Virus record (IMG/VR): IMGVR_UViG_3300027747_001067
Coordinates: 1-51,185 of that record
Source of the DNA: a virus
Length of the DNA: 51,185 nt
Reading direction: 5' to 3' (one strand)
Numbering within the stretch: position 1 is the stretch's first letter; every line of letters starts with the position of its first letter. Positions 2,384-48,988 of this stretch are shown here, one piece after another. Both the position numbers and the translations under genes were made by a program. The notes beneath the pieces are model-generated. The model ran no database searches. It was not told where the DNA came from and saw only the letters and a list, made by a program, of their open reading frames with translations.

Positions 2384-4498
2384 CTACTGGTTGGCAAGAC
2401 ACTGACCAATTCCTGTGATGAGCTGGCATGCAACGGGCACGGCATCCAGCGGGGACTCAACCTTGAACCACTTGTCGTGATTGTACTGCTGACGGAGAGT
2501 CTGTGCATCAATGCCGAAGCCGAAGCCGACGGTGAACACGGGAATGGGAATGTTGTCAACGATGTGACGGACGCTGGAGATGCCATCGTTGAAGGGCTCC
2601 TGATTGTGGTAAGGATCTTCGACGCCACCGCAGGGTGCACCGTCAGTGAGATGGATGATGATCTTGGTTGCGTCGGGGTGATGAGCAAAGAGGTAATCGG
2701 ACGCAGACTTGATCGCGGTTGCAGACGGAGTGCCACCGGTGGGGTACGAGTAGAGGAGAGCGGAGTCAGTGTCGAGGCGACGCATGCTGCACACGGGGAT
2801 ACTGCTGTCTGCAGATGGATCAGACTTGGTGTGCACGAAGTAGTCGCTGTCATCGGCAACGCAACCGCTGCAGTAAGCGAAGGAGGACAGCGAGACGTTG
2901 GATGCACGAGCCAAGCCGTCCTTGAGACCGGCAAGGAATGCAAGCGCTTCCTGCATCACGTTGTGACTGGGCTCGTACTTGTGGGTAGCGAGGTCGATCT
3001 CCGTGGGGTAGACATTGAGGGACATGGACGAGGAAGAGTCAAGGACGACGGCGATTGCGATCTGGCCGTGACCTGCCTCGGGGGGGATGGAGAAGATACG
3101 CGGATCGTTGAAGGCTGCAAGGTTAAGCAGGCTGCCCTCGTCGAGCACACCCTGGAGTTGGGCGTGGTCAGTGGGTGGTGGGGCAGGCACGTGCCACGCA
3201 GCAGCACTGATGGCCTCTGCGATGGGAGCACGGACCTTGTCTTGCAGGCGCTTGGACTTGGCGGCGTACTCACGCAACTTGGGATTGCGTGCAAGGACGG
3301 GGGCCATCTGCTCTTCAGTCATCATGTCGTAGAAGATGGATGGTGGGGGTATGCCCACACAGGGCGAGTCGGTGGGTTCCCACTGAGCATCTTCCTTGGA
3401 CGGCTCGATGACGCAGTCACCGCTTGTGTGCTGCTTGCGGTGGAAGGACTCGTCCTTGTCGGGGGTACCGTCGATACCGAGTCCGCTGCTGCCACGACGA
3501 GGAGTGGTACTGCGCTTGGGCTTCTCCTCGTGGGGGGACAGGACGCGGGCCAGGTAATCGACGAGTTCGCTGATGGCAAAGATGTGTTCTTCGTTGGTGC
3601 GACACTTGGAAAGGATGCCGGGCCATGCTTGGACGGCGAGGTCATAGGCAGACTTGAACTGCTTGGGGAACGGGATGCGCTGGTCGGGTGCAGCGTTGAG
3701 GTTCCATGCAAGGGCCATGCAGAAGCGACGGAGTTCCGAACGGTACTTGCTCTTGGTCTTGACAGCCGAGGCAACCTCCTCCGTGGGGGGAAGGAGCACG
3801 GAGTCTTGGGCTTCGAAGATGGAGTGCCAGCCCGGCCATTGGGTAAGGATCTTGGTGCGGATGTCACGGACACAGGCTGCGTACCAGACGTCAAGCACGC
3901 AGTCAGCATGGACAGAAAGAATATCGCAGCAACCACTTGGCATAGGTGGAAGGTTGGTGTTCTTGAGCAGGTCGGCCACGAACATGAGACCGTGGTAACC
4001 GATGTTGAGGCATGCGTTGTCACGCTCCATGGACTCGAGGCCATAGCCGGTGATGGCATCGGCCAGGGTGTAGATGTCGGGAACGTGGTCAAGCATGCGG
4101 TCAGAGATGAGACTGCCGGGGATGTAGATGCTGGGTCCCCGGTCGGTCATTGGGTCATAGGGTGTGTTGGGGTTGTCCCAGATGTCACCGTGTCGATAGG
4201 CATTGATGAAGTTGTTGACGATGTCAATCTTCTCGCTGGCATTGGGCTGTCGCCTCCAGTCTGCTACGTAACGGTCCATGTGGCCGGCGAAGGCTTCGAT
4301 GGCGGATGAGATGGAGAGACGCTCGATGGTCTCGAGGGGCACGTAGTTAACACCAATAGGGCGGCAAGCCCAGAGAGACCATACCTTGTTGGTGATCTCA
4401 CTCGTGCGGTTGAGGATGTTGCGCTTGTCAGATCCATCGTCGGTGTCGAACCAACCGCTGGTGTCGATGTCGAAGTTGTCAAGGATGCGTTGAAACAT
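2384..4498 (-). CDS. VWA-domain protein, CobT-like partner of the MoxR ATPase
   Basis: A 704-aa protein whose last third is a von Willebrand factor A domain with a complete metal-ion-dependent adhesion site: DSSSS at 487-491, a threonine in the TGGTPSAT segment near 590, and Asp 619 in LTDGAP. The N-terminal 400 residues are helical and charged, as in CobT-type proteins. The start at 4498 overlaps the stop of the upstream AAA+ gene as TAATG. That coupling and gene order are the classic MoxR-VWA (CobS-CobT-like) arrangement, in which the ATPase remodels or metal-loads a target presented by the VWA protein. There is no sign of cobalamin biosynthesis here, so a chaperone-like role is likelier than cobalt chelation. 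The substrate is unknown. Confidence 0.82.
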   Translation of the reverse strand: MFQRILDNFDIDTSGWFDTDDGSDKRNILNRTSEITNKVWSLWACRPIGVNYVPLETIERLSISSAIEAFAGHMDRYVADWRRQPNASEKIDIVNNFINAYRHGDIWDNPNTPYDPMTDRGPSIYIPGSLISDRMLDHVPDIYTLADAITGYGLESMERDNACLNIGYHGLMFVADLLKNTNLPPMPSGCCDILSVHADCVLDVWYAACVRDIRTKILTQWPGWHSIFEAQDSVLLPPTEEVASAVKTKSKYRSELRRFCMALAWNLNAAPDQRIPFPKQFKSAYDLAVQAWPGILSKCRTNEEHIFAISELVDYLARVLSPHEEKPKRSTTPRRGSSGLGIDGTPDKDESFHRKQHTSGDCVIEPSKEDAQWEPTDSPCVGIPPPSIFYDMMTEEQMAPVLARNPKLREYAAKSKRLQDKVRAPIAEAISAAAWHVPAPPPTDHAQLQGVLDEGSLLNLAAFNDPRIFSIPPEAGHGQIAIAVVLDSSSSMSLNVYPTEIDLATHKYEPSHNVMQEALAFLAGLKDGLARASNVSLSSFAYCSGCVADDSDYFVHTKSDPSADSSIPVCSMRRLDTDSALLYSYPTGGTPSATAIKSASDYLFAHHPDATKIIIHLTDGAPCGGVEDPYHNQEPFNDGISSVRHIVDNIPIPVFTVGFGFGIDAQTLRQQYNHDKWFKVESPLDAVPVACQLITGIGQCLANQ
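3530..3539 (+). repeat. Polar motif GTGGGGGGAC (plus strand)
   Basis: An exact copy inside the VWA gene; the coding strand reads TCC CCC CAC. A near-copy ending in AA lies at 3783-3792. Confidence 0.85.
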
Positions 4499-5520
4499 TA
4501 GAAGGGCTCCGCGTTGGTGGTGGTGACGGTGTCGGACACGAGGCCGGGGAACTTGCCGGCGAGGAGAGTGGCCATCGCTGCGCGCTTCGAGTGGTCCTCG
4601 ATCTTGGACAGGATAGTATAGCGCAGGGACTGCTGGCCGTACTTGGCGATGTCGGAAGCGGCGGCAAGCAGTTCGCGGGTGGAGATGGGCTCGTGCGTGG
4701 AGTTCTTGCCTCGGGTGTTGGAGGCGATGTGAGCGAGAGCAACGCACGAGTCGATGTCAAGAGTGGTACGACGCTGGAGCAGCATGGCCTCCTTGGGGGT
4801 GGGCAGGTAGGTGACTTCGATGACACGCGAGAAGCGGTCGCGGAGGGCCAGGTCAACGGGCGAGGCACCGAGATACTTGGCACCCATGTTGGTGGTAGCG
4901 ACGAACGTGGTGTTGGGTCCGACGCGTACTGCTGAGCCGCGTTCCTCGATCCACGAGGCACGACGGTGGTCGAGCAGAGGCATGAGACCGTTGAGCACGG
5001 AGGCAGGTGCGCGGTTGAGTTCGTCGAGGACGACGACGCAGTTGCCAGAGGTGACGGCGCGCACGAACTCGGTGTCCTGCCAACGGATGCTGCCGTTGTG
5101 CACGGTGCGGAAGCCGAACCAATCGCGTGGCTCACGGATCACGGAGCAGTCCATGATGAGCAGGCGCTTGTTGGTTTCCTGTGCGAGCCACTGACCGATG
5201 GAGGTCTTGCCGCAGCCGGCGGGACCGACGAGGCGCAGGTTCTCGATGCCGGTGGAGGTACCGATGGACATCAGGAACGACTTGAGGTTGTCATCGAGTT
5301 CGAGGTCGATGCGCTCGGTGGGGGTAGCGGGCATGGTGCCAGGGACATCGAGTCCGTGGGGGGATGCGGCGAACAGACCGTCATCGAAGGCGGGCTTGTG
5401 TGTGTCCATTGGCATGGGCTCCGGTGTGGTGCGTCGAGTAGTCATGGTGGGTGCGGGGTTGGCGGCGTTCATGCGGGCACGAAGGGCTGCAATGGCAGCA
5501 GGCGAGAGGTTCAGGTTCAT
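4498..5520 (-). CDS. MoxR/CobS-like AAA+ ATPase
   Basis: A 340-aa AAA+ ATPase. Walker A is GPAGCGKTS (99-107), Walker B is VVVLDE (162-167), sensor 1 is the Asn of ATTN (211), and an arginine finger candidate lies in RDRF (227-230). The long post-Walker-B segment, with LNRAP and a GLMPLLD stretch, is typical of the MoxR clade. The first 70 residues are Pro/Thr-rich and probably disordered. The start at 5520 has TAAGGAACTCACCA upstream. Its stop overlaps the start of the VWA gene, so the two should be made together and form an ATPase-adaptor complex. Confidence 0.9.
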   Translation of the reverse strand: MNLNLSPAAIAALRARMNAANPAPTMTTRRTTPEPMPMDTHKPAFDDGLFAASPHGLDVPGTMPATPTERIDLELDDNLKSFLMSIGTSTGIENLRLVGPAGCGKTSIGQWLAQETNKRLLIMDCSVIREPRDWFGFRTVHNGSIRWQDTEFVRAVTSGNCVVVLDELNRAPASVLNGLMPLLDHRRASWIEERGSAVRVGPNTTFVATTNMGAKYLGASPVDLALRDRFSRVIEVTYLPTPKEAMLLQRRTTLDIDSCVALAHIASNTRGKNSTHEPISTRELLAAASDIAKYGQQSLRYTILSKIEDHSKRAAMATLLAGKFPGLVSDTVTTTNAEPF

Positions 5521-7370: not shown

Positions 7371-7913
7371 TCACGAAAGCTGAGCGTCTTCGCTCGGATC
7401 AGACTGCTCGCCCGTGTTGGACAGAGCAGACGGTTGAGCAGGAGCGTCGGTGTCGGAGTCATGACGCTGCGACTTGATCACAGACTGGACAGCCTCGCTG
7501 AGAGGCTTGACGCCAGTGACCTTGTTGCGAGCACCGTAGTCCTTGCTGACTTCCTTGCCGACTGAGACAGTGAACACGACGCCTGAGTGCAGAGCCTTCT
7601 CAAGCTCGAGGCTGAACATGCGAGTCGTGATGGTGGCGTCACTGTCAAGCTGCATGTCGCAAGCCTTGAGGTAGTGCGCGTAACGCCACACCACGCCGTC
7701 GTTGACCAGCGTGCAGTCGGTGTCGTTGTGCAGCGGGGGCAGCAAGTCGAACACCTTGGCGGTACGGCCCGAGTCGAGCGTGATGTCGAGCACGACCGAG
7801 ATGTTGAACAGACCGGGCTTGGACTTGGACGGACGCAGTTCCACCTTGTTGATGGTGGCGCAGTAGTCACCGGCGGTGATGAGCAAACGATCCTGCATTT
7901 CAGTGATGTTCAT
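7371..7913 (-). CDS. possible single-stranded DNA-binding protein (180 aa)
   Basis: A 180-aa protein with a beta-rich body and a flexible, acidic, Ser/Gln/Pro-rich C-terminal tail ending in EDAQLS. Body segments include SKPGLFNISVVLDITLDSG and FTVSVGKEVSKDYG. An OB-like body with an acidic tail is the pattern of phage SSB proteins such as T7 gp2.5, but I see no diagnostic motif, so this is inference. The start at 7913 has TAGGAGAACTCGCC upstream and lies about 80 bases after a leader box (7993-8002). Its own leader suggests high or separately timed expression, which would suit an SSB. Confidence 0.6.
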   Translation of the reverse strand: MNITEMQDRLLITAGDYCATINKVELRPSKSKPGLFNISVVLDITLDSGRTAKVFDLLPPLHNDTDCTLVNDGVVWRYAHYLKACDMQLDSDATITTRMFSLELEKALHSGVVFTVSVGKEVSKDYGARNKVTGVKPLSEAVQSVIKSQRHDSDTDAPAQPSALSNTGEQSDPSEDAQLS

Positions 7914-8003
7914 GGCGAGTTCTCCTAATGGAGGTTAAGTGAGAAGAGTGATGTGGTCAGGACACACGTCGCTGCCACCTGCCCCAGCCTCCCTCCCTTT
8001 TTG
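7914..8003 (-). promoter_or_regulatory. leader cassette A (AAAAAGGGAGG box to start codon)
   Basis: On the minus strand an AAAAAGGGAGGG box (about 7992-8003) lies 80 bases before the ATG at 7913, with TTAGGAG as Shine-Dalgarno sequence. It is one of four similarly spaced leaders between 7.9 and 9.7 kb. The hairpin found in the other three is only weakly formed here. Confidence 0.5.
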
Positions 8004-8034
8004 GAAAGAGGCGTAAGGCGTAAGACAGAACACA

Positions 8035-8093
8035 CAAACAAACACACAAACCCCCATCCCTGCGGGGGCCGCATGGCCCCGCAGGGATGGGGG
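8035..8093 (-). terminator. strong Rho-independent terminator
   Basis: Arms 8051-8070 and 8075-8093 pair over about 19 bases with one bulged G, closing a GCAT loop. On the minus strand the stem is followed by TTTGTGTGTTTGTTTG (8050 down to 8035). It lies seven bases past the stop at 8100 and should end the transcript of the 8100-8634 gene group before leader A. Confidence 0.85.
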
Positions 8094-8099
8094 AGTAGG

Positions 8100-8300
8100 T
8101 CAACTCTTCACCTCATTGGTGAGGGATTGCATACACCTATCAACCTTGGTGATGCCGTGGTCGATTGCGTCTACAAGGTCTGCACTTGTGTCTTCGTGTT
8201 GGACTTGGTCAATCACGTAGCTACGGAGGTGCAAGAGGATGCCCCTCAGGTCCTCGAGGCGGACAGCCATCTTGTTGTTGGTCATTGGGTTGTTTCCCAT
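8100..8300 (-). CDS. small hypothetical protein (66 aa)
   Basis: A 66-aa helical protein containing LEDLRGILLHLRSYVIDQV and a second helix ending near the C-terminus. Two starts are possible. The one at 8300 has GAGGAC upstream at good spacing. The one at 8285 (61 aa) overlaps the upstream TGA as ATGA. It is the last gene before the strong terminator. No family recognised. Confidence 0.65.
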   Translation of the reverse strand: MGNNPMTNNKMAVRLEDLRGILLHLRSYVIDQVQHEDTSADLVDAIDHGITKVDRCMQSLTNEVKS

Positions 8301-8503
8301 TGGTCATAGTCCTCATGTTGGTGGTTGCAGAACACGATGTTTGAGTCTGGTGCTACGAGCAGTGCGTCACCGTGAGCGTTCTCACAGTGGATGACCTTGG
8401 TGTAGCCGTCACCAAGCAGGTCACCGCCGCAGTTAGGGCAGCTGTGGTAGTGGTATGTGCTGCCCGTACGCGTGATGTGGTCTTCATGTGGGTGTGGTTT
8501 CAT
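8282..8503 (-). CDS. zinc-ribbon-like small protein (73 aa)
   Basis: A 73-aa protein with CPNC at residues 22-25, a third Cys in IHCENAH, a fourth in VFCNHQH, and several His residues, notably in the first 20 positions. Four Cys in two groups fit a small zinc ribbon, probably for nucleic-acid or protein binding. The start at 8503 has GGAGGACGACCA upstream and overlaps the preceding stop. It sits in a three-gene group with a membrane protein upstream and an unknown downstream. Confidence 0.7.
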   Translation of the reverse strand: MKPHPHEDHITRTGSTYHYHSCPNCGGDLLGDGYTKVIHCENAHGDALLVAPDSNIVFCNHQHEDYDQWETTQ

Positions 8504-8634
8504 TGGTCGTCCTCCGGAAGGCGGATGCCCATCTCGCTACGAGCGGCGGGCTTGGCAATGGAGATCACGGTGAAGGCCACCAGCGAGAAGGCTGATGCGG
8601 CGGCCACGAGGAAGAACACTTCAGTCAGCGTCAT
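8500..8634 (-). CDS. small single-span membrane protein (44 aa)
   Basis: The protein is 44 aa if started at 8634, where CATAAGGAGTTACGC gives an excellent Shine-Dalgarno sequence. A longer in-frame start runs back into the hairpin leader and is unlikely. One hydrophobic helix (VFFLVAAASAFSLVAFTVI, about residues 5-23) is followed by a short charged tail, predicting a single inner-membrane span. It could modify the host membrane or affect lysis or superinfection, but nothing identifies it further. Confidence 0.7.
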   Translation of the reverse strand: MTLTEVFFLVAAASAFSLVAFTVISIAKPAARSEMGIRLPEDDQ

Positions 8635-8722
8635 GCGTAACTCCTTATGCAAGGATGAAGTAAGAAGCGGGGTTGGGCTACACACCCAACCCCGCACACC
8701 AACCACCGGCCCCCTCCCTTTT
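8635..8722 (-). promoter_or_regulatory. leader cassette B (AAAAGGGAGG box, hairpin, AUAAGGAG)
   Basis: On the minus strand AAAAGGGAGGGGG starts at 8722, inside the stop codon of the upstream gene. It is followed by an 11-base perfect stem (8667-8677 with 8685-8695) and then CATAAGGAGTTACGC before the ATG at 8634. The box-to-start distance is about 80-88 bases, as in the other three leaders. Confidence 0.6.
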
Positions 8723-9114
8723 CAGAAGGGCACGTGCTCTGGGTCGAGGAGGCGGGCATAAGCATCGAGCCCATCCGAGATCTTGCCTGCTGCATCCATG
8801 GCATCCAGGTTCTTCTTGTGGAACTGAGCATTGTCGGCGCTGTGGATGAGGTGGTTGATGGTGGTACGCAGACCACGCATGCAGTCGGCCAGGAACAGAC
8901 GACGACCATTCTCAATTGGGCCAATCTTGTCAGGGGTGACCAGCTTAGCCGCGTACTTGTAGAAGGCATCCCTCACCTCGCGGAAGGTGTTGTATGACTC
9001 GTACGACAGGCAGTTGTGCTCGTCCTCGAACTTGAAGGTCCCGTCCTTCATGACATAGATGTGCGGGCACATGGGCACGTTACCGATCACGGTTGTGCTA
9101 TTAGTGTTGTACAC
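8722..9114 (-). CDS. hypothetical protein (130 aa), GTG start
   Basis: A 130-aa protein starting at the GTG at 9114, eight bases after AAGGAG. It opens with a polar segment, then has DGTFKFEDEHNCLSYES and several helices (FREVRDAFYKYAAKLV, MRGLRTTINHLIHSA). It has no membrane segment and no recognisable family. It has its own leader (C) and is followed directly by leader B, so it may form a single-gene unit. Confidence 0.7.
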   Translation of the reverse strand: MYNTNSTTVIGNVPMCPHIYVMKDGTFKFEDEHNCLSYESYNTFREVRDAFYKYAAKLVTPDKIGPIENGRRLFLADCMRGLRTTINHLIHSADNAQFHKKNLDAMDAAGKISDGLDAYARLLDPEHVPF

Positions 9115-9207
9115 GGTAGTGACTCCTTATGTGGAGGTTGTGTGTGAGTCGGTGGAGGTGTACACCCACCACCACGCGCTCAACCCCTTACGCCCCCCTC
9201 CCCTTTT
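9115..9207 (-). promoter_or_regulatory. leader cassette C (AAAAGGGGAGG box, hairpin, AUAAGGAG)
   Basis: On the minus strand AAAAGGGGAGGGGGG starts at 9207. A perfect 10-base palindrome GGTGTACACC (9157-9166) is extended by GGTG/CACC arms to 9151-9170. CATAAGGAGTCACTACC precedes the GTG at 9114. The box lies about 84 bases before the start codon. Confidence 0.6.
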
Positions 9208-9260
9208 GAAACTTGGTGTATGGCGTTACTATCTCCCCCCGGATCGGGGACACATAGCCG

Positions 9261-9302
9261 TCAAAAGAAAGCGACCCAGAGGCTCCGTAACCTCTGAGTC
9301 GC
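9261..9302 (-). terminator. Rho-independent terminator
   Basis: The stem GCGACTCAGAGG / CCTCTGGGTCGC (9271-9302, one mismatch) is followed on the minus strand by TTTCTTTT (9270 down to 9263). It lies directly after the stop of the 9309-9614 gene and should end its transcript. Confidence 0.88.
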
Positions 9303-9308
9303 GATCTG

Positions 9309-9614
9309 TTACTTCGTGGTCTTGCGCATATACACCGAGAGTTGCTCGGTACGATCCGCGCCCTTGCCGCGGGTTTCGCGCACGATCACGGTATCACCGA
9401 CCTGCTTCACGACAGGCACAGCAGCGATCCACGCATTCGAAGGCGAGCCGGCCTCGTCGAACGTCTCGTACTGCACGATCGCATACGGACTGGTCACCTT
9501 GTTGAGGGTGATGTCGGTCAGGTCGATCACCGCCGCACGGAACTTGACCTTGTTCGCAGAGGGTTGCTTAGCGGACGCGGCCTTCATCAATTCCTCAGTT
9601 GTTACCTTAGCCAT
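9309..9614 (-). CDS. hypothetical protein (101 aa)
   Basis: A 101-aa protein with a short helical, Lys/Ala-rich N-terminus, then a mostly beta-strand body. Body segments include VKFRAAVIDLTDIT, YAIVQYETF, WIAAVPVVKQVGDTVIV and EQLSVYMRK. This could be a small beta-barrel, but no family is recognised. The start at 9614 lies behind CATAAGGAGATACTGAT. It has its own leader and its own terminator, so it is a self-contained unit next to the candidate origin. That suggests an early, abundant product. Confidence 0.72.
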   Translation of the reverse strand: MAKVTTEELMKAASAKQPSANKVKFRAAVIDLTDITLNKVTSPYAIVQYETFDEAGSPSNAWIAAVPVVKQVGDTVIVRETRGKGADRTEQLSVYMRKTTK

Positions 9615-9705
9615 ATCAGTATCTCCTTATGCAAGACAGCGACGATAAGTTGAGGTGTACTCACACCACCAACTGCTGTCATTACCTTCAGCCCTTCTCC
9701 CTTTT
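9615..9705 (-). promoter_or_regulatory. leader cassette D (AAAAGGGAG box, hairpin, AUAAGGAG)
   Basis: On the minus strand AAAAGGGAGAAGGG starts at 9705. A hairpin follows (AGTTG 9648-9652 with CAACT 9670-9674; GGTGT 9654-9658 with ACACC 9663-9667), then CATAAGGAG before the ATG at 9614. The box lies about 83 bases before the start codon. Confidence 0.6.
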
Positions 9706-10001
9706 AATTGTTATAGGACTCACTTCACTGGCGCGCCAGCGCCGGGGGGCCTATGCCCCCCTAGGCCGGAGGCCGTAGTGAGAATGAAAGGGGGAACCCG
9801 TCCCAAAATTTCCTTCCGCGTTCCATGGACCCGACCACACTGACCACCCCGACCATGTCTCCAAAAAACCGTACACCCTATAGCCCAATCGCTCACTAGT
9901 TTCTCTATTTACCTGGTCTCCCTGGTCAGAAGAGTATAAGTAAGGGAAATACAAGCACTTAGCCTAGACCACACCCCTGGTCATAACCTGGTCGGACGTG
10001 G
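9706..10001. other. structured intergenic region, candidate replication origin
   Basis: This is the upper part of the only gap longer than 300 bases (9615-10001, between a minus-strand gene and the helicase-primase). It holds a perfect 12-base palindrome CTGGCGCGCCAG (9728-9739), overlapping GC-rich stems at 9744-9774, and ten TGGTC/GACCA pentamers between 9833 and 10018. It also has a moderately AT-rich stretch with TATACT on the minus strand (about 9928-9950). A frame on the minus strand at 9751-9954 could code for 67 aa, but it has no Shine-Dalgarno sequence and lies over the repeats, so I do not call it. Confidence 0.5.
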
Positions 10002-10018
10002 TCACCCCTCCTTGACCA
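9833..10018. repeat. TGGTC/GACCA iteron-like cluster
   Basis: GACCA starts at 9833, 9842, 9851, 9967 and 10014. TGGTC starts at 9914, 9923, 9978, 9989 and 9999. The spacing is exactly 9 bases in the first group and in the 9914/9923 pair, and 10-11 bases in the last, close to one helical turn. The arrangement suggests a binding site for an initiator or a transcription regulator. Confidence 0.6.
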
Positions 10019-11399
10019 CCAGCCCCCTGACGCCCCTAATGCGCTCATCCCCCAATCGAGCCCTAACAAGCTTCCATGTACTCTCCTCAACCATCCTATG
10101 AACGAGCTGAGCCTGCGACACCTCCTCCCGATACCCCACTCGAGCCTTCCATTGCTTCCAGATCCCCCACAGATTGGTCGTACTGACGAATCCCCCATCG
10201 CTTTCCACGAAATGGGACTCCAAGAAGTCCTGCACGGGGTTGTTCAGGGACTGGAAACGCCCCACAACTTCCTCTGCCGCCGCTGGAACTGGCCACAACT
10301 GACTCGAATCGGTCTCCTCAAGCAGTTCCTTAGCCCCCTGCAGCGCCCACGCCGCAATACCCGCAGTCTCCGCAGCCAACTTTGACGCCAACTGCAGGTC
10401 CTCCCGGCCCAAAAAGCTATTGGTAAACGGCAGAACCAGCATCTTGCTGGCCAAACCCTGCCCCTTATTGGGCAACTTGGGGATCTCATTGCTCTGAACC
10501 ACCAAGAAACCCGGGATCACCACATCCCGGATGGGCTCCATGTACTTCCTATCAATGCTTACCGGGTCCCCACCCACGATGTTTTTTAGTGACGCGACCG
10601 CCAATTCACTTTCCCTGGAGTTCAACGCCCCAAATTCACTTACGCTCAGCACCCTAGCCGCCTCTGCACCCCACAACCCAAACTGACTGGCCAACTGAGC
10701 CATGCTCAGACCCCTGAAACCATCACCCATCAGGTTCTTCACCACCCGCATGATCGTTCCCTTGCCGCCACGGACCCGTCCCTGCATCAAAAGCCACCGC
10801 TGCCACCGTCTCCCGGGCATCAACATCGCCCCCATCGCCCTCTGCAGCAGGCTCTTCCACTTCTCATCGCCCCCACTCCACTGTTCCAAGCACGCCATCC
10901 ACGTCGGACACACCGCCGACGGGTCCCACGCGCACCCCACAACCACCGGCTCAAAGAACAGCTCGTCCCTGACCACCGTCTTGCCCGTCAGTACATCGAC
11001 AACCACATCCTCAAACGCAACGCACCGCTCAAGCTCCGGCGTATCGACCACATTCCCCAGCCACGCCGGCGCATAGCTCTGCTTCAACCGAATCAACGCC
11101 CTCAACGCCTGCTGCACGTTCATCACGGTCTGACTCGTAGGCCCCAATCGCCTTGTGTTGATTCCCGTCGGCGTCGGCGTCTGGATGTGCGCATCCTCCA
11201 TCGCCAACCACAGCGCCTCCTCCAACCATCGCTCATCCCTGCGCACCCATTTACCCGCGTACCACTCCCACGGCTCGCCCCGCCACTCCCAAATACCCAT
11301 GCGCCCTTGCGGTGTCGTCCACCTTGCCCGCAAAATAGCCCTAGCAATTGCCATGGGCTCTGCACTGTTCAGCGGGTTCCGTTGCGTCAAGACTTTCAT
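10002..11399 (-). CDS. D5-like SF3 helicase-primase
   Basis: A 465-aa protein with a superfamily 3 helicase core. Walker A is GRVRGGKGT (207-215), the Walker B-like segment is VLSVSEF (250-256, E255), and motif C ends in QSN (N304). The region before Walker A contains conserved Trp-rich segments (WEWRGEPWEWYAGKW) and fits a D5_N-type domain, as in phage and plasmid DNA primase/helicases. I see no clear catalytic primase domain, so primase activity is inferred from the family only. The start at 11399 has AGGAGG upstream. It is the first gene of the minus arm and lies beside the candidate origin, which fits the replicative helicase. Confidence 0.85.
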   Translation of the reverse strand: MKVLTQRNPLNSAEPMAIARAILRARWTTPQGRMGIWEWRGEPWEWYAGKWVRRDERWLEEALWLAMEDAHIQTPTPTGINTRRLGPTSQTVMNVQQALRALIRLKQSYAPAWLGNVVDTPELERCVAFEDVVVDVLTGKTVVRDELFFEPVVVGCAWDPSAVCPTWMACLEQWSGGDEKWKSLLQRAMGAMLMPGRRWQRWLLMQGRVRGGKGTIMRVVKNLMGDGFRGLSMAQLASQFGLWGAEAARVLSVSEFGALNSRESELAVASLKNIVGGDPVSIDRKYMEPIRDVVIPGFLVVQSNEIPKLPNKGQGLASKMLVLPFTNSFLGREDLQLASKLAAETAGIAAWALQGAKELLEETDSSQLWPVPAAAEEVVGRFQSLNNPVQDFLESHFVESDGGFVSTTNLWGIWKQWKARVGYREEVSQAQLVHRMVEESTWKLVRARLGDERIRGVRGLVVKEG

Positions 11400-12855: not shown

Positions 12856-13272
12856 ATGTACATCTCCTTCGGTGGGGGGATGCGCCTTGTCGGTGAGGAC
12901 TACATGATCCGAGAGCTCTCTGCTCTTGGCTTGTCTCGCCGCGGCTTTCGCCAGCTCTGCCGCAAGCTACAAGTCCCACTTATCCACGCACCCGGCGATC
13001 GCATCCTCGTCGACCTCATCGCATTCATGTTGGCGATGCGCACCATCTCACGACCCGGTGCACCTGACTTCTCGCTGCCCGGCTCCCAGCATCGGCCTGG
13101 TACACGCAACTCGCTGCCTTCGCAAGAACTGATTGACGCAATGCCGGAGACCGTCTCGCTCCTTGAGAACGGTCGCAAGATGTTTGGCATAGTCAAACCC
13201 GGCACCTTAAGATCTGCTGCCGGCGAAGTGGTCGCTCGGCTCAAGGACACGCAGAGCAAGGTGCAACAGTAA
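12856..13272 (+). CDS. hypothetical protein (138 aa), possible HTH DNA-binding protein
   Basis: Two starts are possible: the ATG at 12856 (138 aa) and a TTG at 12841 that has GGAAAC upstream but overlaps the previous gene. Residues of about 20-60 (ALGLSRRGFRQLCRKL, then a strand and a helix VDLIAFMLAMRTI) resemble a helix-turn-helix fold of the kind that reads DNA. The C-terminal half is polar. A DNA-binding small terminase is one idea, since TerL lies three genes downstream. The stop overlaps the next ATG as TAATG. Confidence 0.65.
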   Translation: MYISFGGGMRLVGEDYMIRELSALGLSRRGFRQLCRKLQVPLIHAPGDRILVDLIAFMLAMRTISRPGAPDFSLPGSQHRPGTRNSLPSQELIDAMPETVSLLENGRKMFGIVKPGTLRSAAGEVVARLKDTQSKVQQ

Positions 13273-16199
13273 TGGCTGAATACACATCCAACGAGATCTA
13301 CAAGTTCCTTAAGATCTTTGCCGACAAGATGGGCTATAAGTTGGATGCGGATAAGCGCGGCCCCTTTGAGTACGAAGGCAAGCTGAAGCAGGGCGGCCCA
13401 ACTGTGGCCAACCAGATGCTTGCCGAGCTTGCCCGCAAGGTTGTGTCGTCCGGACTGATTGGCGACCTTGACATGCGCCAGGCATTTCTGGACTTCTCAG
13501 GTGAGCTGGAAGCAGCCGATACCCATCGCCGTTTGAAGCGCGAAGTTGCTAAGGCGCCTGGCAAGGAAGCAGAAGTTCGCGTACCCATCCACTCACGCAC
13601 GGGCCGACCCCTCGGCATCCAGCGTCCAGACGGAAGCATTGTCAAGCTGCACCTCAAGCAGTCTGACGTTGAAGAAATTGAGGGGATGGCAAAGCGAGCA
13701 CCTAAATTCAGCGGCTACTTCCAAAAAGCTGGAGAGCGAAAGAAGGGTGTGCCGTACGATCCGGTTGTTGACATTGACATGTATGGCCCAGACATACGCA
13801 AGGCTGTACTCAAGAAGGTTCTAGCCCGCCATAGGGAAGCCGGAGGTTGGGTCAAGGGCTCCAAGGTTGTGGAGATGTACGGGACCAAGACGGCTCTTTC
13901 CCGAGAACGTGGCCCTAGCCGCATTCCCAAAGAGTTCCCCGGCGAAACTGAGCAGCAAAAGAAGTCTCGCAGTCTACTGCTTAAAAGGATGCAGGAGGAA
14001 GCGGACGCGCCGGACAAGCCAGATCGTTTCCGCAGTGCGCTTGAAGAAGCTGCCGCCGAAGCCCTGGGCCCCAAGAACCGAAACATCTTTGGCCAGATCA
14101 AGGGCGGTGGGCCCATGGTTGCACGAAAGCCAGAAGTGCAAACTACCCCCCTAAGGGATTTTAAGTACGACCTCCCACCGGGTGTTGACCAGGTGCTTGT
14201 CGACGGCAAGTACATGTTCAGCTACCCAGGCTCCAAGAAGCCCGGCACCATTGATGACGTGTACGCCTACTTCAAGAAGCAGGTAAAGGGTCTTGATCCG
14301 GATGCGCTTGACAACCTAAAGCGCGTAGCCACTGCCAAGGAAGCTATCAAGTTCCAGATGGAAGATCCTTCCGGTGCAGACACTGCACTTGATACCTATG
14401 CCGGTGTCAAGGCTCGCAAGGCTGGGGGGACCCGCAATCCGGATGAGTATGAAGTTGCTGAGCGTCGTGCCAGCAAGAAGCAAATGTACGACGAGATGGC
14501 CCCCTCCGACCGGAAGGCTCGTGAGACTGCAGCGGCCATTCGCGAGCAAGAAGAAAACAGGCCACCCTACCTGAGCCCCGGCCGCCGACTCTTCTCAGCC
14601 CCTGGGTCTAAGCAGTGGGAATTCATGAACAAGTCGGTCAAGAAGCTGAAGGCATACCTGCGCAAGAGCGGGATGCCGGAGCCGGAGATTGAAGCCAAAG
14701 TTCTCAAGATCCTGAAGCCGTACATTGACAGCATTCACTCTGCAAAGTTTGAAACGCGCAAGGCAACCAAGAAGAGTCTTGAGAAGCCGCAGAACGTCCC
14801 CTACTTCCAGATGACAAAGCCCGATGCTCAGGGCAAGTCAATGAAGGCAATCATTGTTCCTGGCGAAGACCAGAGTACGAATGAGGTGGACGGGGTGCGT
14901 GCCTATGAAGTTAAGGCTGCAACCCAAGTCATCAAGGCCCTGCAAGCAGAGGAAGCCAAGGTTCGTTTGGAAATGGCCCGTCAAGCCGAAAGATCAGGCA
15001 CAAAGGACGCAGTGGCTGACGCCATGGCGGAAATGGAAGCAGAAGGCCTGTCTCTTTCTCGCAAGTCTTTGGGCAAGCGGCCATTCAACGCGTCGAAGAC
15101 CAAGGACCTCATCACTGGCCCATTTGCACGCACTGCCGAAGAGGTGGGTGCACTTCAGGGTGCCGCGGCAAACCGTGGCACCAAGCTTGGCACTATGGTT
15201 GAGAACTCGGTAAGGGACCTCCTCAAGAGGAACTTGTCCAAGCCCGAGCTGGAAACGGCACTCAACTCCGTTCGAAAGAATTTCAAAGAACGCTACAACC
15301 TCAGCCCGGCCAACTTTATGCGGATTGCGTCTGCCTTTGACGACCGTATCAAGGACCTAGTAACGGTGGACATTACTACCGCGGCACAGCAGAAGCAGCG
15401 TCGTGAGTTCTTGGAACGGCCTGATGTTCGCTCGTCAGAAGGCCAAGTCGGTACCCCTGATACCCCAAAAAAGACACTTCAGCAGACCATTGAAGAGCAC
15501 AAGAGGCAGGGGTCGTGGAACCAAGCTGCCGAAGCTGAGCAGCAGGGGCGAATTAGTAAGCGCATTGCAGACTACCTCCGTCTGGCCCGAGGTGAGGCTG
15601 ACATTTCAGTTGGCAAGGCGCTTAGCCCAGCGGAACGTACACAAGAGGCACGCGCCGCCAATGGTGCCCCAGAAGAAGTGATGGCTCGTGCTGGAACCAG
15701 CATGCGCCGGTCGCTTGAGGGCAAGCGGGACTTTGCTATTGCAGACAAGCGTCGCCGAGTGGCTGCCAAGCTCAAGCAGTTGATGGACCCCCGCATGTCC
15801 GCAGCTGTGCAAAGGGCCCTAGAAAACCCGGTTACCCGAGTGGAAATGCAGGGGACTGAGCGAGATCGAGTGGCCGACATGCTTAACGAGCTCATCACCA
15901 CCCACGTGGGGGGACGCGGAGCCACCGATCTGTTGGGCCCCACTTCGGACACCGGTGTCTCCATGCCTTGGGAGCCTACAAACTACACGCCTCGCCTTCA
16001 GGGCCGATCGCCCGTTGAGACCGAGGCTCCCGACTTGGGGGCTCTGCTGAGACTTGGCAAGGCAGATCGTCCGGTGCAGGGTCCGGCCCCGGCTCCAGTG
16101 GCACGGGAGATTCCGGCTGTGGAGTCCCGTTTGTCTGCTAAGATCCTGGAGCGTCTGAAGAAAACTGGTTCGTATAAGCGACCGACGCGACGTAGGTAA
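13272..16199 (+). CDS. large basic/charged hypothetical protein (975 aa)
   Basis: A 975-aa protein very rich in Lys, Arg, Glu and Ala, with many predicted helices, no membrane span, and no motif I recognise. The N-terminus (SNEIYKFLKIFADKMGYKL) looks globular. Much of the rest alternates charged helices with Pro/Gly linkers. It overlaps the genes on both sides by TAATG. Size and position before the terminase genes suggest a virion-associated or packaged protein, or a scaffold. That is inference only. Confidence 0.8.
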   Translation: MAEYTSNEIYKFLKIFADKMGYKLDADKRGPFEYEGKLKQGGPTVANQMLAELARKVVSSGLIGDLDMRQAFLDFSGELEAADTHRRLKREVAKAPGKEAEVRVPIHSRTGRPLGIQRPDGSIVKLHLKQSDVEEIEGMAKRAPKFSGYFQKAGERKKGVPYDPVVDIDMYGPDIRKAVLKKVLARHREAGGWVKGSKVVEMYGTKTALSRERGPSRIPKEFPGETEQQKKSRSLLLKRMQEEADAPDKPDRFRSALEEAAAEALGPKNRNIFGQIKGGGPMVARKPEVQTTPLRDFKYDLPPGVDQVLVDGKYMFSYPGSKKPGTIDDVYAYFKKQVKGLDPDALDNLKRVATAKEAIKFQMEDPSGADTALDTYAGVKARKAGGTRNPDEYEVAERRASKKQMYDEMAPSDRKARETAAAIREQEENRPPYLSPGRRLFSAPGSKQWEFMNKSVKKLKAYLRKSGMPEPEIEAKVLKILKPYIDSIHSAKFETRKATKKSLEKPQNVPYFQMTKPDAQGKSMKAIIVPGEDQSTNEVDGVRAYEVKAATQVIKALQAEEAKVRLEMARQAERSGTKDAVADAMAEMEAEGLSLSRKSLGKRPFNASKTKDLITGPFARTAEEVGALQGAAANRGTKLGTMVENSVRDLLKRNLSKPELETALNSVRKNFKERYNLSPANFMRIASAFDDRIKDLVTVDITTAAQQKQRREFLERPDVRSSEGQVGTPDTPKKTLQQTIEEHKRQGSWNQAAEAEQQGRISKRIADYLRLARGEADISVGKALSPAERTQEARAANGAPEEVMARAGTSMRRSLEGKRDFAIADKRRRVAAKLKQLMDPRMSAAVQRALENPVTRVEMQGTERDRVADMLNELITTHVGGRGATDLLGPTSDTGVSMPWEPTNYTPRLQGRSPVETEAPDLGALLRLGKADRPVQGPAPAPVAREIPAVESRLSAKILERLKKTGSYKRPTRRR
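14422..14431 (+). repeat. near-copy of the polar motif (CTGGGGGGAC)
   Basis: It differs from GTGGGGGGAC only at the first base and lies inside the 975-aa gene. Other near-copies on the plus strand start at 2106, 3783, 5356, 12872, 18081, 25284, 30300, 38452, 44097 and 47514. Confidence 0.7.
15906..15915 (+). repeat. Polar motif GTGGGGGGAC (plus strand)
   Basis: An exact copy inside the 975-aa gene, read GTG GGG GGA (Val-Gly-Gly). Confidence 0.85.
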
Positions 16200-47608: not shown

Positions 47609-48988
47609 TTAGGTGGTAGTAAGTAAGTTTAGTTCAGTTTGCGTCTTAGTCACTGGCCAGTACTTGACCTGTGCAAAAGTCATGCACGGCATATAATTTC
47701 CGTAACTTGTTGTTGGAAGCCTGCCCAACACAAACTTCGTTGAGGCATACAGGTCTCCAGTTCCTGCCCTGTTGATAGTTCCAACTGTTCCACCATTCAA
47801 AACTGCAGCAACGATTGGATCGCTAGTTGTGTTAACGCTGCAAGCATAACGTGTTTGTGCGTTGAGGGTGTACCCTCTATACACTTCATTTGGACCACCA
47901 GAACTCAAACTTGGTCCGCGCGCTGCAACGCCAATATTGGTAGAGTTTGTGAACACTTCAAATGTTGGTCGTGGACTAGGGCTGTTACTGTCCATAAACC
48001 CGACGATCTCTGTGTAAGCACCGGGTGTTTGCTTGTGAATGATGCCGCTCCAGTAAAGCGTACCGTTGGTGGTGCTCACTTGGAAAGGAGAAGCATCAGC
48101 AATGAAACACTGGTCAGCTGCTCGTGTCACAGCAGCAGTAGTTGTTGGGATGTACGAGGATGCTCCGTTGCCTGCTTCAAGTTGCGCGCCCCAAACGTAA
48201 ATGCCGCTTCCAGTAGTCCCTGCATATGAGGTTGTGGTTCCGTCTGTAGACAGCCTCATTTGACAGTTTGCGCTTGTTTGTCCAGCAGCGGTTGTAAATC
48301 GCATTTCAATCCGATACCACCCGGTTGTTCCGATTGCTGTAACCCTTGTGTTACCGGCGACTGATTCGCTAACAATGTTTCCGTTTGACAGGTTTACCAT
48401 GTTAGTCGCGCTGCTTCCACCGTTTTCATACAGCTGGACAAATGTTCGTTCGACTGCTTTTGCCCAAACGCTGAAGGTATATGCCGTTGAAGCAGAGGCA
48501 GTAGGCACACTTAATGTTGCATGCACTCCGTTTGTAGTTGTTTCTTCAACTTTGACAACTGTTCCGCTTGATCCAGTTGGGTTGGTGGTTGTGACTGTTC
48601 CTCTTGTCGTATTCACTGCTGAGAAGTTCCAGTTCACTGCGCCGCCAGTAGTTTGAAATGACTCACTCCAGTTCAACAGGTTCGTTGCGCTTCCCTCAAT
48701 TAGCAGCCCTCGAGGGGCTAGCGTGGTCGGGTTGTAGTCAAAGCGTGGCACACCAGCAGCAACACTTTGCACATAACCACTGCTGTTGATAAAGGTGGCT
48801 GTTCCAACTGCACCTGAAGTGGTTGAAGAACTTCTATCAAAGGTGAAGCGCGAATCCAGAGATGACATCTGGGTAAAGTCAAGGGTGAGCGTGGACCCGT
48901 CGCTTGCTTCGAGTGCGGGGTAGATGCGGTTACGCTGATCGCGTGTGCCGAAGGCGTCAAGAGAAGACGCGCGTGTTCTGTTCATCAC
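47609..48988 (-). CDS. lectin-like fibre/spike protein (459 aa)
   Basis: A 459-aa protein of Thr/Ser/Gly/Asn-rich strands. The segment RGLLIEGSATNLLNWSESF is a hallmark I recall from phage head-fibre and spike proteins with a concanavalin/LamG-like fold. The following repeats (TAYTFSVWAKAVERTFVQLYENG, WYRIEMRFTTAAG) fit the same fold, which binds surface sugars. It lies inside the replication/recombination arm, away from the other virion genes. Codon use is more A/T-rich than in its neighbours. The start at 48988 overlaps the upstream gene as ATGA. Confidence 0.7.
   Translation of the reverse strand: MMNRTRASSLDAFGTRDQRNRIYPALEASDGSTLTLDFTQMSSLDSRFTFDRSSSTTSGAVGTATFINSSGYVQSVAAGVPRFDYNPTTLAPRGLLIEGSATNLLNWSESFQTTGGAVNWNFSAVNTTRGTVTTTNPTGSSGTVVKVEETTTNGVHATLSVPTASASTAYTFSVWAKAVERTFVQLYENGGSSATNMVNLSNGNIVSESVAGNTRVTAIGTTGWYRIEMRFTTAAGQTSANCQMRLSTDGTTTSYAGTTGSGIYVWGAQLEAGNGASSYIPTTTAAVTRAADQCFIADASPFQVSTTNGTLYWSGIIHKQTPGAYTEIVGFMDSNSPSPRPTFEVFTNSTNIGVAARGPSLSSGGPNEVYRGYTLNAQTRYACSVNTTSDPIVAAVLNGGTVGTINRAGTGDLYASTKFVLGRLPTTSYGNYMPCMTFAQVKYWPVTKTQTELNLLTTT

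Follow-up and report, generated by a model that had tools for sequence, protein, structure and literature searches.

The window (the whole 51,185-nucleotide stretch analysed) is a phage contig in which a series of minus-strand genes runs away from the primase/helicase gene (10002–11399). Past the primase gene, 9840–10020 is non-coding and carries CCTGGTC/GACCA repeats, making it a plausible origin region. Four leaders of common layout follow on the minus strand. The first precedes gene 1 (9309–9614, 101 aa), which is not homologous to the gene at the same place in close relatives and has an intrinsic terminator (9262–9302) behind it, before leader 2. Leader 2 serves gene 2 (8722–9114, 130 aa), for which no family was found, and leader 3 serves three small overlapping genes (8100–8634). 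A GC-rich hairpin with a T-rich tail, resembling a terminator (8051–8093), then precedes leader 4, behind which lies a gene (7371–7913) for a putative single-strand-binding protein. The product of this gene, which is without a Pfam family, is predicted to adopt an OB fold, with PrgE of plasmid pCF10 as its best PDB match (E = 7.9e-5), followed by single-stranded DNA-binding proteins (SSBs).

Each leader contains the box AAAAGGG on the minus strand, at 9699–9705, 9201–9207, 8716–8722 (overlapping the gene 2 stop codon) and 7995–8001. These boxes, beginning at 9705, 9207, 8722 and 8001, are the only minus-strand copies in the whole window; the plus strand has two, both within one coding ORF. The Shine-Dalgarno sequence is TAAGGAG in leaders 1 to 3 (9623–9629, 9123–9129 and 8641–8647) and TTAGGAG in leader 4 (7922–7928), ahead of start codons at 9614 (ATG), 9114 (GTG), 8634 (ATG) and 7913 (ATG). 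Counted from the first A of each box, the start codons lie 91, 93, 88 and 88 nt away, respectively.

The four similar leaders reported in an earlier note on this DNA are therefore real, with Shine-Dalgarno sequences as given there. Its spacing of 80–88 bases fits a count that begins where the box ends; taken from the first A, the spacing is 88–93. Of the AAAA(A)GGG(G)AGG-type box it described, AAAAGGG is conserved and GGGAG is not: leaders of the relative L003 read AAAAGGGCAT, CTT, AAA and CGT at that position. The proposed likeness to the GGGAG start sites of single-subunit polymerases, which rested on too few genomes, is consequently unsupported, and no conserved promoter lies upstream. For such a polymerase, which the note did not see, PF00940 turned up in 0 of 11 records (a search run without a positive control, on contigs that may be incomplete), and the D.DGD motif was absent from the window ORFs. 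That each leader serves one gene or a small group also holds, with the qualification that the genes served differ between phages.

Three other regions of the window deserve mention. A minus-strand gene inside the replication operon (47609–48988) matches a phage head spike fiber or tail protein (NF048003, E = 5e-38; phrog_5939). At 2384–5520 (minus strand) an AAA_5/MoxR-like ATPase stands beside a VWA-domain-like protein, a CobS/CobT-like pair also present in some other phages. A 975-aa protein encoded on the plus strand (13272–16199) belongs to no family and has no similar protein in six relatives, marking a hypervariable large gene.

Relatives and lineage-specific boxes

No near-identical record was found among 50,697 phages, and relatives came from IMG/VR, with primase identities of 63–99%. 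In L003 all four sense copies of AAAAGGG lie in the same four leaders, while L017 has three boxed leaders, L007 and L051 have two each together with one AAATGGG variant (found in L018 too), and L013 has one exact box and one CAAAGGG box. The L012 element on its own is weak, its scan having also returned chance matches with one box mismatch. The distant relatives, at 63–64% identity, keep the layout with a different box that is common to each phage's own leaders. In L014 the box of three leaders is AAGGCGGGCT, at 86 and 98 nt from the two starts that are unambiguous; in L015 and L016 it is AAATGCTGGT, which in three cases out of four precedes the start by 86–89 nt. Stems resembling the first hairpin described below, with 9–12 nt loops, follow nearly all of these boxes. 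This change of box in concert between lineages suggests either a trans-acting reader or recombination that copies the sequence among leaders.

The box is not indispensable, since in the close relatives L002, L004, L005, L006, L008 and L010 homologous genes have other leaders without it. A presence/absence comparison returned no gene confined to boxed phages, and so pointed to no phage-encoded reader. Unboxed leaders of L005 (12180–12290), L002, L004, L006 and L008 show the order C-run, G-run, C-run, with both C-runs as possible partners of the G-run, possibly a strand-exchange layout in other sequence.

Gene 1 and its L003 counterpart share a leader type at 17% protein identity, and leader 3 is nearly identical in the window and L003 while the genes behind it differ. 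Unrelated genes thus stand behind the same leaders, which go with positions and not with genes. The first gene past the primase encodes unrelated small proteins even at 97–99% primase identity; this slot, compared in the window, L003, L005, L007, L010, L013, L014, L016 and L017, is followed in most relatives by an intrinsic terminator, and is a hypervariable cassette with a possible role in counter-defence.

Beyond these genomes, the pattern AAAAGGG-N6-GCTG-N10-CAGC matched 41 stretches in 2.9 million viral contigs, its repeated leader context being limited to this phage family; the singleton matches in L072 and L089 have chance-like Shine-Dalgarno sequences. We found no prophage relatives in cellular genomes. 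Rfam gave no match at the gathering score in the window, L003, L017 or L007, and at a lax E-value only chance-like matches to miRNAs and scaRNAs.

Hairpins and spacing

The box is followed after 4–7 nt by a weak hairpin, HP1, with a stem of 4–5 bp and a G-rich loop of 10 nt. On the minus strand of the window it reads GCTG[AAGGTAATGA]CAGC in leader 1 (9675–9692), GCGT[AAGGGGTTGA]GCGC in leader 2 (9176–9193), CCGG[TGGTTGGTGT]GCGG in leader 3 (8692–8709), where a G-G mismatch adjoins the loop and L003 has CCGT/GCGG, and GCTG[GGGCAGGTGG]CAGC in leader 4 (7971–7988). The exact geometry (4-bp stem, 10-nt loop, 4–7 nt past the box) occurs in 11 of the 13 exact-box leaders, from four phages, compared to a mean of 0.69 and a maximum of 5, whichever the loop length, in 2000 dinucleotide shuffles, and no other loop length scored above 4. 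The two exceptions are leader 3 of the window (W8722), with its mismatch at the loop, and L017_1786, which has an 11-nt loop. The stem sequences vary widely (GCTG/CAGC, GCGT/GCGC, CCGC/GCGG, CGGC/GCCG, GCCG/CGGC, CCCC/GGGG, CCGT/GCGG, and TTGC/GCAA in the AT-richer L012), while loop position 9 is G in 13 of 14 leaders.

Pairing was scored on an alignment (A6) of equal-length units cut by hand to the HP1 register, with the spacer trimmed to 4 nt; an earlier MAFFT alignment (A5) had broken the stems. HP1 pairs in 98.2% of cells against 55.2 ± 6.0 in shuffles, with a covariation score of 1.04 against 0.25, neither being reached in 500 shuffles, although pair counts on A6 lean toward HP1 and the unsupervised control is the 11 of 13 geometry count. 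Both sides have changed at each of the four HP1 pairs, and sliding the partners to any other register reduces pairing. Since the sample is drawn from few phages and includes orthologous leaders, its members are not all independent. In a covariance model search of 493 kb the boxed leaders of the searched set ranked top, except for weak ones that were filtered out, and the model recovered L007_6348, which was absent from the set used to build it. Across the 19 loci scanned, every exact box with HP1 precedes a Shine-Dalgarno sequence and start codon. Within this comparison, then, double changes demonstrate that the predicted HP1 pairing is conserved.

HP2 lies directly past HP1, mostly after a gap of 0–4 nt, and can extend by taking the HP1 3′ strand. 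In the window (minus strand) extended HP2 covers 9637–9678 in leader 1, as alternative partner of the HP1 3′ strand, 9148–9180 in leader 2 and, in a short form, 7952–7980 in leader 4; HP2 of leader 3 (8667–8695) is the most stable of the four. For 14 of 15 leaders, HP1 is less stable than a fold that pairs its 3′ strand downstream, the median difference being 6 kcal/mol. Of 60 arm bases, 53 take part in this downstream pairing (shuffles 37.9 ± 4.7), and a second test gave a Stouffer z of −4.1; the excess is not present in every leader and comes from leaders that are not independent. HP1, the helix best supported by comparison, is therefore not the most stable one, suggesting, on weaker statistics than those for its pairing, that it competes with an extended HP2 for its own 3′ strand and is either transient or stabilised by a ligand.

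It was HP2 that the earlier note had seen as a hairpin in three of the four leaders; the hairpin is real, and HP1, present in all four, had been missed. The selection for RNA structure that the note proposed is upheld, most strongly for the hairpin it overlooked, as is its expectation of conservation, box and HP1 both recurring in relatives.

The distance from box to start is 90.8 ± 4.9 nt in 17 leaders (extremes 82–99 nt). Within it, HP2 takes up 11–46 nt (standard deviation 10.8) and the tail 20–52 nt (standard deviation 8.7), the two being inversely related (r = −0.92) with a standard deviation of 4.5 for their sum. HP2 and tail lengths thus compensate, indicating that the box-to-start distance itself is held, at about 91 nt, which speaks for a function at the level of mRNA or translation more than for one in DNA or antitermination. 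Base composition changes along the leader, from 48% G after the box to 9% G in the C-rich stretch before the Shine-Dalgarno sequence. The latter is not visibly sequestered in either fold, which counts against a reading as translation control.

Readings of the leader

The alignments establish the box, its constant distance from the start despite a variable HP2, and its reuse before unrelated genes; from these we infer a function in the leader. As far as comparison of genomes can tell, a small group of phages does have this RNA leader element, which covariation supports and Rfam lacks. What it does is an evenly balanced question, and the reading we place first takes it for a module that acts in cis in the mRNA leaders of early, exchangeable cassettes, with a lineage-specific reader that acts after transcription starts. 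The module would consist, in order, of a single-stranded box (AAAAGGG here), about 6 nt, the weak HP1, HP2, a G-poor stretch that should stay open, the Shine-Dalgarno sequence and the start codon. A lineage-specific factor would bind the box together with HP1, and its binding would set translation or stability of the mRNA, thereby coordinating the early genes. A candidate for this factor is the predicted OB-fold, SSB-like product of the leader 4 gene, which could act as T4 gp32 does on its own leader. Many leaders follow a terminator, so models at the level of transcription fit as well, and this weighs against post-transcriptional reading. We entertain only tentatively a more specific form of the module, a regulon of metastable leaders in which an SSB-type phage protein (or a polymerase) captures HP1 and the lineage's box, switching unrelated early genes together, while box and reader change jointly between lineages.

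The main rival, to which we likewise give a minor share of belief, is an antiterminator of the put type, two hairpins in the nascent RNA that would allow host RNA polymerase to pass the terminators separating the cassettes, with no need of a phage protein. The stretch from box to HP2 measures about 60–70 nt and forms two adjacent stem-loops, as in HK022 putRNAs, intrinsic terminators do lie between cassettes, and no phage-only gene tracks with the box. However, antitermination needs no constant distance to a start codon, and one element per transcript would do where three or four are present; the sequence and structure of put are not matched, and the terminators are kept in relatives without the box.

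Somewhat less probable is a start of transcription at or near the box, with one promoter per cassette between terminator and box and with hairpins that stabilise or pad a 91-nt 5′ UTR. Two of the four leaders begin about 45–65 nt past a terminator, as do orthologues in relatives, leaving room for one promoter, and both the constant leader length and the concerted change of box between lineages are what promoter sequences would give. Against this, we found no sigma-70-like −35/−10 site upstream of the boxes in 7–12 kb (1.6 expected), only a C at −6 stands out from otherwise nearly unconserved columns upstream of the box, and leader 3, which begins within the gene 2 stop codon, has nothing but coding sequence ahead of it. 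The searches for PF00940 and the D.DGD motif described above, and one for sigma-70 region 2, were negative, and HP1 covariation would be left unexplained.

Further candidates were tried and rejected. Neither a single-subunit nor a multi-subunit phage polymerase was found, within the limits of the PF00940 search given above. A T7-type promoter with a GGGAG start is contradicted by the absence of the roughly 17 nt of conserved promoter before GGGAGA, the upstream columns being near background. A leader peptide or uORF using the box as its Shine-Dalgarno sequence would have start codons past the box that, by inspection and without statistics, are inconsistent between leaders.

An unlikely account is that of ordinary hairpins, 5′ or intercistronic, which act as RNase barriers in mRNA protection or processing and have no specific reader. 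Boxless GC-rich hairpins between genes are frequent in these phages (one lies before 7292), but conservation of an unpaired box, the exact loop length of 10 nt and the concerted change of box would go unexplained. We regard as very improbable a function of the hairpins in single-stranded DNA as primase or primosome sites near the origin: covarying stems suit single-stranded DNA as well as RNA, and the primase gene and CCTGGTC/GACCA repeat region adjoin, yet the elements keep a constant distance to start codons, and each is flanked by a stop codon and a Shine-Dalgarno sequence. RNA G-quadruplexes are hardly credible, since a two-quartet structure, although possible in 11 of 18 of these leaders given their G-richness after the box, is impossible in the other 7, including W9705, L003_11754 and L012, where HP1 pairing is kept.

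Comparison with known systems

The lambda nut site (boxA and boxB) consists of a short linear box, a few nucleotides and a small hairpin with a loop of 5. The order of box, short spacer and small hairpin is shared by the leaders described here, which differ in box sequence, in a loop of 10 instead of 5, and in having one copy per cassette and no identified N-like protein. The manA and wcaG leader RNAs of cyanophages are structured, presumed 5′ UTRs of phage genes that were likewise found by covariation (PMC2864571). Unlike those, the present leaders have no Rfam match, and both structure and genes are different.

In the gene 32 translational operator, described for T4 and RB69, the protein binds its own leader and represses it; in T4 a pseudoknot at about −61 to −42 is accompanied by UUAAA repeats in an unstructured stretch (PMC535899). 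Structure 5′ of an open stretch leading into the Shine-Dalgarno sequence is common to both systems, as is an SSB-type gene (for leader 4 only, by predicted fold). The present element differs in having a box and two hairpins from −91, with no UUAAA repeats seen and no pseudoknot shown, and in being shared by three other genes. HK022 putRNA is about 70 nt long with two stem-loops, requires no phage protein and may be situated as much as 270 nt away from its promoter (PMC9378689). The similar size, the two adjacent stem-loops in an early-gene leader and the terminators downstream are set against a different sequence and structure, several copies per operon and a constant distance to the start.

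SAS and ESAS are repeated elements of cluster K mycobacteriophages and cluster EF Microbacterium phages; SAS is a 13-bp conserved sequence at the ribosome-binding site, 3–7 bp from the start, and the inverted repeats of ESAS are conserved in sequence, with little support found by the authors for RNA hairpins (PMC3203893, PMC7302621). As here, they form repeated leaders of non-structural phage genes from different families, in one orientation and in fixed relation to the start, with a lineage-specific consensus. The differences lie in position and in mode of conservation: SAS sits at the ribosome-binding site, whereas our box is about 91 nt from the start with an ordinary Shine-Dalgarno sequence, and HP1 stems are conserved by pairing, ESAS repeats by sequence.

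Taken with the relatives' own boxes, the four-leader layout gives the appearance of a common means, not yet on record, of controlling early phage genes. It offers a testable RNA control element from a group of uncultured phages to which nothing among 50,697 phage records is closely similar. A switch, should HP1 and the alternative hairpin constitute one, would provide simple joint control of exchangeable cassettes and a small portable part for controlling expression. While no system compared is met in full, SAS/ESAS of cluster K and EF phages is the closest described phenomenon, and the leaders resemble these unexplained start-associated sequences of actinophages with RNA pairing that is here backed by comparison.
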